From contig JAHLJZ010000036.1 of NCBI GenBank assembly GCA_025602915.1, positions 124,001 to 188,000 of the forward strand: DNA of 64,000 nucleotides, written 5' to 3'. A program made the position numbers and the translations under genes. The notes under the pieces were generated by a model. The model saw nothing but the letters and a program-made list of their open reading frames with translations, made no database searches and was not told the origin of the DNA. This DNA is from Paraphysoderma sedebokerense (Eukaryota; Blastocladiomycota; Physodermatomycetes; Physodermatales; Physodermataceae). Shown one piece after another: positions 5,767-64,000 of this stretch; positions within the stretch are counted from its first letter, which is position 1, and each line of letters opens with the position of its first letter.

Positions 5767-6132
5767 CTAATTGGTAGCTTGTCCATTAGCACCGGCTACT
5801 GCTCCCTTCCAAGCCCCTTTTGCAACATTCCAAACTCGACCGGTGACTTGCTCAGTAGCCCGAGTAACTTGACCGACCGCTTGACCGGTAGCGTCAGTAA
5901 CTTGACCGACTACTCGACCAGTAGCCTGAGTAACTTGGCCAGCTACTTGACCAACGCCTTGAACGGCATTTTTGGCATTGTCGGCAGCTCTCGCTGTTTT
6001 GTCGGTTACCTTTTGCGCAGCCCTATCGATGGCCACTTCAGGATTCCAAATTTGGGGAGCTGGGGCGGCAAGTGTCGAAGCAATCAAACACGCAAGAACA
6101 AGGGCAAAGTATTTTGAGTAAAACATGTTCAA
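5767..6132 (-). CDS. Secreted 11-residue-repeat amphipathic protein
   Basis: Intronless frame of 121 residues. The first ~22 residues form a classic signal peptide (short basic start, hydrophobic core ALVLACLIASTLAA, cleavage around AAPA). Residues ~35-60 are a charged Ala/Lys/Asp segment. Residues ~60-100 form at least three tandem units of 11 residues with the consensus GQVT-x-ATG-x-x-V. Undecad repeats are known from apolipoproteins, synucleins, perilipins and LEA proteins, where they make 11/3 amphipathic helices that lie on lipid or protect against desiccation. The mature protein has no cysteine and no obvious enzyme motif. Secretion is well supported; lipid or surface binding is inference. 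The gene has its own TATA-like box and an inverted repeat just upstream. Confidence 0.8.
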   Translation of the reverse strand: MNMFYSKYFALVLACLIASTLAAPAPQIWNPEVAIDRAAQKVTDKTARAADNAKNAVQGVGQVAGQVTQATGRVVGQVTDATGQAVGQVTRATEQVTGRVWNVAKGAWKGAVAGANGQATN

Positions 6133-62201: not shown

Positions 62202-63998
62202 TTAAGCTTGCAAGAAAACTGCAGCAGCAGCTCCTAAAATGAGAGATAATTTGACAAAGATGCCAGCAGCAAATGCAGACTCGGCATCGTTTTCTGTTTG
62301 ATTGTTAATTTGAATGAAGGTAGACGACGACAAGGTAATTAAGACGTACTCTTATTGCCAAAGTCTATAACAATGGTGAAGTCATTTGAGTTTAATTGAG
62401 GTGACGGAGTTCCGCAACAGATATTGTCAGTAATCACATTATCAACGATACATCAGACGGCGGTTGGAAAAAGAAGTTCACGAAATTACCATCTGCTGTT
62501 TTCGCTATTGTCGAATAAAAAAAAAGAATCAAAAGTTAATAGTTAGCAATCACTGAGTGTTGAACCATTATTACATGGCGGAACGGACAAAGGAAATCGT
62601 CATTCTTTACGTACGTCCAAGTCCGCCTTCTAAATTGCCGATGTTAAAAAAAGAGAAGATTAGCATGATGAGAAACCACTTCAAATCTCATATCTGAATG
62701 TCACAACTCACCAGTTGTAGTATCCTCGGCTATTAATTCGACGGAGCGATGTGATTAAAGGAATGGAGATTAGAAACGTCACGCCTAAGGTGGACAGCCA
62801 TAATTATGACAGAGAGAATAAACGAACCAGGAGGGTCATTTGTCGCTATAAGTGCAATGCAATGTTGAAACCAAAGTAAGACGCGAGTTGTTAGATCAAA
62901 GTAGTGTTCATGATGTCTACAGCAGCAACATTAACGAATGAAAAAACGCACCAATTTGATCGACGTTGCCTTATAATGTTATTATAAGAAATAGCAATTG
63001 ACTGTTAGAATGCCGAAGTAATTTAGTCGCAATTGTCGCTGCGATTAATGAAAGAACTCACTTGTTCGAGGTGCGGTAGCTGTTGATCAATAACCATTCG
63101 AAACGAAGGCGAGACAGCAAAAGTCCGTTTAGAATGCTACTATTTCATAGATAAATAAGGACAATTGGACCATAGTGGAAAACTTACAAGTTTGGGTGGT
63201 AGTGCCTTTACACAGGAAGAGCAATAATGAATGCAGAATTGTCAAAACTACGAATATTATTTGTTTAAATGCATGAAGAACGCACCAGGTTGATCAGTAG
63301 TGCCTATGTATGCAGAGGAAAATCGAGGTCAGAGAAATTCAGAAGATATTTGAAATCAAAAGGAAGCATTTGAATGATGAGAAGACTAAAACGTACCGGG
63401 TTGGTTGGTAGTAGCTACTTGTCAAAAGAGGAAAAGTTCGGATGACGAAAGTGTCGGTTAGAAAGAGTACTACGTCTTGCGCAGCAGACCAATGAAAACT
63501 TGATGCATTACCTTGACCATTCCCACCACCTTTTCGTATTTTAGATGTTGAATGGCGAGAGGAAACAATTAAATATTGCTCAATCATATGTGATGGTTCA
63601 ATAAAATTTCATACCGTATGTGAAAGTAGTAGCTGTTGAACGCGGAGTTGAACTCGTGGATTGAGAACCTGCAGTGAATAAGCCTCAAAGTTAACAAAAA
63701 TCTGGCTTTGCAACTTATCGACTCTCAAGAAAATGTAGAATTTACCCGTTTGTGTAAACGAGAAGTTGTCTTCATCGGCGAAAGTATACCTTTGCCCAGT
63801 GGCACCTACAGCATTGATTTGGAGGAAAAAATCATCTCCGTATCCTGACACAGAAAGGTCAGGTGTAATGAAAGCACCAGTGCGTTCATTGAATTGTTGA
63901 TGGGTTGAAACAACGAATGCAAAGTTCGGATCAGATCTTCTGAAAATGCTGAGAGAGTATGACAGAACGTCGTTCGGAAGGGTAAACGAAGGACTCAA
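62202..63998 (-). CDS. GPI-anchored surface protein with micro-exon-encoded stalk (partial at window edge)
   Basis: Minus-strand gene whose upstream exons, presumably including the signal peptide, lie beyond the window. The first visible exon (63746-63998) encodes ~84 residues of a beta-rich domain (e.g. FAFVVSTHQQFNERTGAF, GYGDDFFLQINAVGATGQRY). A 77-bp intron leads to a 54-nt Ser/Thr exon (63615-63668), then eleven micro-exons, then a terminal exon (62202-62293). The last 23 residues, from AAGIFVKLSLILGAAAAVF to the stop, with small residues just before, form a textbook GPI-attachment signal. The stalk is Thr/Gln/Pro/Asp-rich with hexapeptides such as ATTNQP, GTTDQP and GTTTQT, suitable for O-glycosylation. 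All introns are phase 1 and all internal exons are multiples of three. The domain family is not recognised. Confidence 0.8.
62350..63529 (-). other. Array of eleven symmetric micro-exons (18 and 15 nt)
   Basis: In transcript order: 63512-63529, 63397-63414, 63286-63303, 63188-63205, 63062-63079, 62952-62969, 62828-62845, 62712-62729 (all 18 nt), then 62615-62629, 62490-62504 and 62350-62364 (all 15 nt). Introns between them are 80-125 bp. Each exon is preceded by AG and followed by a GT donor such as GTAAGT, GTGAGT, GTGCGT or GTACGT. Each carries a phase-1 junction, so the frame stays open through all eleven into the GPI signal. The first one has the weakest acceptor (GAAAAG). The regular size makes chance matches very unlikely. 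Confidence 0.85.
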
Positions 63999-64000
63999 TG

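Follow-up and report, generated by a model that had tools for sequence, protein, structure and literature searches.

What is a series of exons of five or six codons each doing in a fungal gene, and does such a series belong to a gene at all? The question is raised by one edge of a 64,000-nt stretch of DNA from Paraphysoderma sedebokerense, called the window below (contig JAHLJZ010000036.1, positions 124,001 to 188,000). A preliminary description of this DNA had proposed eleven consecutive phase-1 exons encoding the stalk of a GPI-anchored protein. These exons, eight of 18 nt and three of 15 nt, are present, phase 1-1 throughout, on the minus strand (none had been named), at the coordinates given below. 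The gene crosses the 3' end of the window (64001 and upwards are outside); its 5' part was read from the adjoining 7 kb of the same contig.

The gene model (64400..62202, minus strand) comprises 17 exons and 744 coding nt including the stop, and would encode a protein of 247 aa leading from a signal peptide to a GPI-type tail. All 16 introns are GT..AG introns of 56-125 nt. Exons 1 (64400-64318), 2 (14 nt, 64244-64231) and 3 (31 nt, 64148-64118) are outside the window, exons 2 and 3 being uncertain and asymmetric. Exon 4 (281 nt, 63746-64026, with 63746..64000 inside the window) encodes a globular, probably all-beta domain. It is followed by intron 4 (77 nt, 63669..63745, GTAAAT..CTGCAG), then by exon 5 (54 nt, 3 x 18, 63615..63668), which is Ser/Thr-rich (GSQSTSSTPRSTATTFTY) and also phase 1-1, that is, symmetric; an in-frame acceptor at 63633 would turn its last third into an 18-nt exon. 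The array had been placed between the globular-domain exon and the GPI-signal exon, which is its position, but exon 5, ahead of the first 18-nt exon, had gone unmentioned.

The eight 18-nt exons, which belong to the model and are also found by the gene finder presented below, are exons 6 (63512..63529, GGGNGQ), 7 (63397..63414, ATTNQP), 8 (63286..63303, GTTDQP), 9 (63188..63205, GTTTQT), 10 (63062..63079, STAPRT), 11 (62952..62969, SNVDQI), 12 (62828..62845, ATNDPP) and 13 (62712..62729, AEDTTT). The first 15-nt exon, exon 14 (62615..62629, EGGLG), is found in both ways too. The two 3'-most 15-nt exons, 15 (62490..62504, PKTAD) and 16 (62350..62364, DFGNK), are less certain and are the weakest part of the array: 62504-62452 could be a single 53-nt exon and 62348-62202 a 147-nt terminal exon. 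Exon 17 (92 nt with the stop, 62202..62293) carries the hydrophobic C-terminal GPI-type signal (KNDAESAFAAGIFVKLSLILGAAAAVFLQA). The array and exon 17 share a single open frame down to the stop at 62202, just as had been claimed. Micro-exon 7 is preceded by a tandem acceptor, AAGTAG (63417-63414), whose upstream use would add one codon and give a 21-nt form.

The 247-aa model bears out the idea of a fungal, predicted secreted protein with a stalk and a GPI-type tail. By inspection, residues 4-20 form a hydrophobic segment of the signal-peptide kind, which is the top hydropathy peak of the protein. The last 22 residues have a mean hydropathy of 1.90 and include one Lys; the protein ends there, so that, again by inspection, a hydrophobic tail follows small residues and no cytoplasmic part follows the tail. 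This suggests a GPI signal; GPI attachment, O-glycosylation and a surface location of the protein would also seem plausible. The stalk has 81 residues, 63 of which come from the eleven micro-exons. Thr makes up 15 of these 63, whereas over the 81 residues Ser and Thr together account for 35% and V/I/L/M/F/W for 6%.

Could such a chain of exons arise by chance? Between 64000 and 62200 (1801 nt), there are ten open phase-1 candidates of the form AG-18 nt-GT and all ten fit in one chain, whereas no chain exceeds three in 200 dinucleotide shuffles of the same segment. Two of these ten are not separate exons of the model, one lying inside intron 4 and the other being the last third of exon 5. A wider scan covered 321 kb of the 27.3 Mb genome, made up of the window, its adjoining 7 kb and 25 stretches of 10 kb each. 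There, chains of 15/18-nt exons with bare GT/AG borders reach 6-11 in five shuffles (11 in one of the five) and 10 and 11 at two other loci, where only 1/10 and 1/11 donors are GTNNGT. Since shuffles and other loci match its length, the bare chain by itself would not convince.

When GTNNGT donors are required, the array still gives a chain of 7-8, and the next longest real chain in the 321 kb has three exons. At the 18-nt setting, one such 3-exon chain is part of the array read in a different frame and the other is due to a repeat in locus L032. Five shuffles of the 321 kb give 1-2 exons (18 nt), 3 (12-24 nt) and 3-4 (6-36 nt). Donor quality is thus what sets the array apart from other chains, bare GT/AG borders being indecisive over the 321 kb. 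Within these 321 kb (of 27.3 Mb), which include the window, no second micro-exon array was found, and others could exist elsewhere. A 4-exon chain at 7280-7011 of the window, as well as chains in L032 and L035 with weak donors, looked like chance because, by reading, they fall within a repeat or an extended open frame. The repeat in question (L032:6400-7250, identified by reading) imitates a 10-exon chain with bare GT/AG borders and weak donors, besides its 3-exon GTNNGT chain.

Splice signals point in the same direction. The gene region contains 121 GT sites; only 14 of them read GTNNGT, of which 11 serve as donors in the model. Within the array, 9/11 donors are GTNNGT (hypergeometric probability 9e-9, a figure uncorrected for any selection made in the first reading of the sequence), and the types GTTCGT, GTGCGT and GTGAGT recur as donors of AP-2 alpha, a gene on this contig. 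A CTAAY motif lies 10-60 nt upstream of the acceptor in 6/11 array introns against 1.4 expected (shuffle fraction 0.001), and YTRAY in 10/11 against 6.1 expected (shuffle fraction 0.0115). Intron 15 has no YTRAY in this interval, and intron 9 has just one, 11 nt away from the acceptor.

Composition also separates the two types of segments, array exons having 50.8% GC and 16.9% T versus 36.5% GC and 38.6% T for introns. Two frames of the array, those of phases 0 and 1, are open. With a codon usage table drawn from 32 long open frames of a genome sample, the joined array exons score +20.5 bits in the phase-1 frame, which joins both flanks, against 4.5 and -43.6 in the other frames, while 2000 random sets of intron pieces, each taken in the best of three frames, do not exceed 14.2. 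If retained, 11 of introns 5-16 (12 introns) would bring an in-frame stop, the exception being intron 6. Splice-signal and codon statistics, as independent signals, support the predicted array.

The array was also recovered by a small spliced-gene finder that has no preference for exon length beyond a minimum of 6 nt. Three other genes supplied the 14 introns used to train its splice matrices: six from AP-2 alpha, fixed exactly by a public protein, and eight read by eye in two genes with five and three introns, which we take, by reading only, to be acyl-CoA-dehydrogenase-like and DHHC-like. At intron costs of 0, 2, 4 and 6, the path ends at 62202 and includes every 18-nt exon plus the first of the 15-nt ones (exons 6-14), i.e., 9/11 array exons and 11/17 exons of the model. 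For the control, the stretch between exons 5 and 17 was shuffled and the path forced to the same stop, 91 of 100 shuffles giving a solution: at cost 2, the real sequence scores 84.2 against a mean of 29.6 and a maximum of 63.2, and at cost 4 it scores 56.2 against a maximum of 43.8. On AP-2 alpha, 5/6 introns were recovered, with the reservation that they belong to the training set; no exon of 24 nt or less was called there at costs 2-8, and five were called at cost 0.

The gene finder departs from the model at both ends, which are uncertain (exons 2-3 and exons 15-16). At the 5' end, it merges exons 2-3 into a 131-nt exon and shifts the start of exon 4; at the 3' end, exons 15-17 become exons of 53 and 147 nt. 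Totals calculated with no intron cost are 111.9 for the 5' alternative, 110.1 for the 3' alternative and 109.9 for the model. The model was retained at the 5' end because exon 3 yields an NY..G start that is found in one KNH-type domain of the genome. At the 3' end, the array could be smaller, exons 6-14 being genuine and followed by the 53-nt exon and the 147-nt terminal exon. This version, which is the choice of the gene finder, equals the model in total score and has a higher codon score. The model was nevertheless retained because the alternative needs an acceptor scoring -3.1, the worst in the three models compared; furthermore, the hydrophobic segment NFVNFFFQ would then fall in the stalk. 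A shorter array of this kind is a possibility of some weight, although an unlikely one.

Taken jointly, a real gene for a secreted surface protein of the GPI-anchored type, with a stalk coming mostly from the eleven micro-exons and a full-length stalk as the default, has a probability of about 0.82 in our estimate. The anatomy, the open frame and the splice-signal and codon statistics can be read directly from the sequence; the array introns would presumably be removed by splicing. The predicted protein would consist of a signal peptide, one globular domain (probably all-beta, perhaps Kre9/KNH-like), a Thr/Pro/Gln/Asp-rich stalk and a GPI signal. Fungal introns as short as these are removed by intron definition, and tiny exons are tolerable when the intron ends are good. 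The spliceosome would thus see each intron of 56-125 nt as the unit, in which case exon size would hardly matter, and the introns could be taken out singly, with the aid of the strong GTNNGT donors. The default product would include all the exons. As the array exons and exon 5 are symmetric, the omission of any of them would keep the frame and shorten the stalk, with a loss of 5 or 6 residues per array exon and of 18 in the case of exon 5.

These exons may therefore be optional, and a stronger proposal is that they are used combinatorially, regulated or stochastic skipping giving a pool of stalks that differ in length and sequence, a behaviour described in schistosome micro-exon genes and reported in truffle NACHT-ANK genes. 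Symmetry, a property of exon 5 and of every array exon, is lacking in exons 2 and 3, but it is equally expected from the duplication of one phase-1 unit. The tandem acceptor at exon 7 and the internal acceptor in exon 5 are in favour of variable splicing; the strong array donors, on the contrary, favour constitutive inclusion. Antigenic variation would go unrewarded in a microalgal host, which is not known to have adaptive immunity. The biology of the species is of interest here. P. sedebokerense (Blastocladiomycota, Physodermataceae), a parasite of green microalgae, is reported to parasitise Haematococcus and two other microalgae and to form amoeboid swarmers and flagellated zoospores, its propagules attaching to the algal cell and encysting (PMC7912770). 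The infective amoeboid swarmers, described there as attaching straight to algal cells, count in favour of combinatorial use. On balance, combinatorial use seems doubtful. Its extended form would have an alga-parasitic, early-diverging fungus evolving a combinatorial micro-exon gene independently of schistosomes, the in-frame skipping of up to twelve symmetric exons producing stalks graded in length and composition under a binding domain on the infective swarmers; we regard this scenario as improbable, if worth keeping in mind.

A much shorter gene is very unlikely. In this case, exon 4 would run through intron 4 to a stop at 63609 and encode a secreted domain with no anchor, the array being a product of chance or a relic. 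The frame is indeed open to 63609 if intron 4 is retained, which would give a secreted form devoid of stalk and anchor, and the gene finder ends there, with 3 exons, when the intron cost is raised to 7 and 8. However, the donor of intron 4 is good (score 3.2, sixth best of 16) and the intron has a TTAAC branch-type motif. Moreover, the downstream splice signals, the codon bias and the GPI-type tail would all have to be coincidental.

With the full gene retained as the preferred reading, the similarity between exons bears on the way the array was formed. In register, the 18-nt exons share on average 7.39 identities of 18, against 6.47 with permuted codons, a value reached by 0.64% of permutations. 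This similarity, which keeps the codon register, is driven by exons 7, 8, 9, 11 and 12: they provide all the pairs with at least 10/18 identities, namely six pairs at 10-12/18. The 15-nt exons match any 18-nt exon at 8/15 at best; among themselves, they share 4 positions at most, and they do not clearly belong to the same family as far as these comparisons indicate. The equation of one exon with one repeat unit is consequently clear only for the five exons cited, out of eleven. The introns are unalike (mean z 0.18 within array introns and 0.11 between array and other introns). It is hardly credible that the locus is a decayed tandem repeat of a unit of about 110 nt with an exon-like core by accident, since the likeness of five exons, which could recall such a repeat, keeps the codon register while the introns are mutually dissimilar and Tandem Repeats Finder reports nothing at the array.

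A minisatellite was also rejected on this blank result and the dissimilar introns. An introner, i.e., copies of one mobile intron, is not supported, the introns being unalike and the locus having a single match in the genome and no second copy (in a search that skips very common words). A pseudogene was likewise rejected, the frame being unbroken and the codon bias intact. The array could derive either from ancient duplication of an exon-intron unit with later divergence of the introns or from a pre-existing 18-nt repeat that introns entered; exon 5, with its unsplit 54 nt, is compatible with both. Elsewhere in the window, an imperfect 33-nt tandem repeat of 3.3 copies is located at 5846-5953.

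The nature of the globular domain is less clear. Pfam gave no family over the cut-off for the 247-aa model, no NACHT or ankyrin match, and no PF10342 among matches up to E 10. In the genome, PF10342 has eight matches at E up to 1, six of them over the cut-off, and the array gene is not among the eight. By eye, the domain resembles Kre9/KNH domains. Its alignment by hhalign with a profile of 6 KNH-type domains from the same genome gives P 0.0025 with a probability of just 12%, and P 0.0034 with the alternative 5' end of the gene, so that membership is only a perhaps. The single-sequence model of the 84 domain residues encoded in the window is all-beta with low confidence (mean pLDDT 66); a fold search with it found no significant structural match, and the absence of KNH structures there shows nothing.

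The search of a protein database with the 247-aa protein gave no match at E up to 10, among entries of 136-432 residues and with shared 5-residue words needed, and exon 4 by itself gave none in the same database. This negative result leaves room for a fused model of more than 432 residues or for a partial proteome in the database. As the latter contains the AP-2 alpha of this species and lacks the array protein, the gene was probably missed or wrongly modelled in public annotation, and it may be an example of a gene overlooked by automatic annotation. Searches of the genome and of the protein database revealed no paralogue or relative with the micro-exon pattern.

If transcripts confirm the array, it would represent a micro-exon array in the phylum Blastocladiomycota, where none was found described in the literature searched, whose coverage lacks most subscription journals. 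If true, its presence in a lineage far from schistosomes and truffles would suggest that the assembly of low-complexity stalks out of symmetric micro-exons evolved more than once. The gene would, besides, offer a clean natural system in which to study how the spliceosome deals with eleven consecutive exons of 15-18 nt.

Among known proteins, the predicted product is like Kre9/KNH (PF10342) surface proteins in having a secreted domain and a C-terminal anchor, with a weak profile similarity. Unlike them, it is below the reach of PF10342, and the stalks that are readable at other loci (L006, L008 and L009) are in long open stretches. The eight PF10342 loci (25,764 bases, with about 1.5 kb of flank on each side) contain no comparable micro-exon chain: the longest GTNNGT chain has 1 exon (18 nt) or 2 (12-24 nt), and at the loosest setting (6-36 nt) L008 reaches 4, as do shuffles of the 321 kb. 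Two observations were made on these KNH-type genes. L006 and L007 (contigs C58 and C136) have the same open frames, pointing to haplotypes assembled separately or to a recent duplication. At L004/L010 (C2:538550-542205), six-frame reading reveals a gene with several consecutive KNH-like stretches, two of which are matched by PF10342, one over the cut-off.

Micro-exons are not new in fungi. The primary paper on those of the Tuber melanosporum nank genes is said to be that of Iotti et al. in 2012. The claim that no fungal case had been described does not stand, since these truffle NACHT-ankyrin genes are cited in a survey as having multiple codon-sized micro-exons that are reportedly alternatively spliced (PMC4986451). 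The array gene is comparable to them as a fungal gene with multiple micro-exons (PMC4986451). It differs in that theirs, as summarised by the survey, are codon-sized and belong to NACHT-ANK genes of an ascomycete, whereas here exons of 5-6 codons encode the predicted stalk of a secreted protein in a blastocladiomycete. In the P450 genes of Phanerochaete chrysosporium, exons of 2-10 residues are reported between short introns; they are scattered over many enzyme genes, and the accessible portion of that paper describes no array of near-equal units (PMC1184071). Other reports concern one switch-like micro-exon in Trichoderma Xlr2, whose authors call prior fungal knowledge limited (PMC11121469), and a one-nucleotide exon in Fusarium (PMC12940212). 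Judged on the DNA, the array is real; what would be new is a stalk array in a blastocladiomycete, fungal micro-exons being already known.

The closest layout is that of the schistosome micro-exon genes (MEGs), whose coding region is described as consisting mostly of very small symmetrical exons that are alternatively spliced (PMC4350168). The protein database showed no sequence relation to the MEG family at E up to 10, MEGs being covered only through that word-based search. The parallel drawn in the preliminary description is justified for the layout, with tiny symmetrical exons in series, and not for the share of the coding region: unlike in MEGs, micro-exons 6-16 account for just a quarter of the coding sequence (189/744 nt, or 243/744 with exon 5). 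Exon length is also nearly uniform here (18/15 nt), and a globular exon and a GPI-type tail are present. MEGs are reported to be differentially spliced (PMC4350168), whereas the array gene is known from its sequence. Like MEGs as they are presented in that source, it has runs of tiny symmetrical exons that could be omitted in frame, in a gene predicted to encode a secreted or surface protein of a parasite (PMC4350168).
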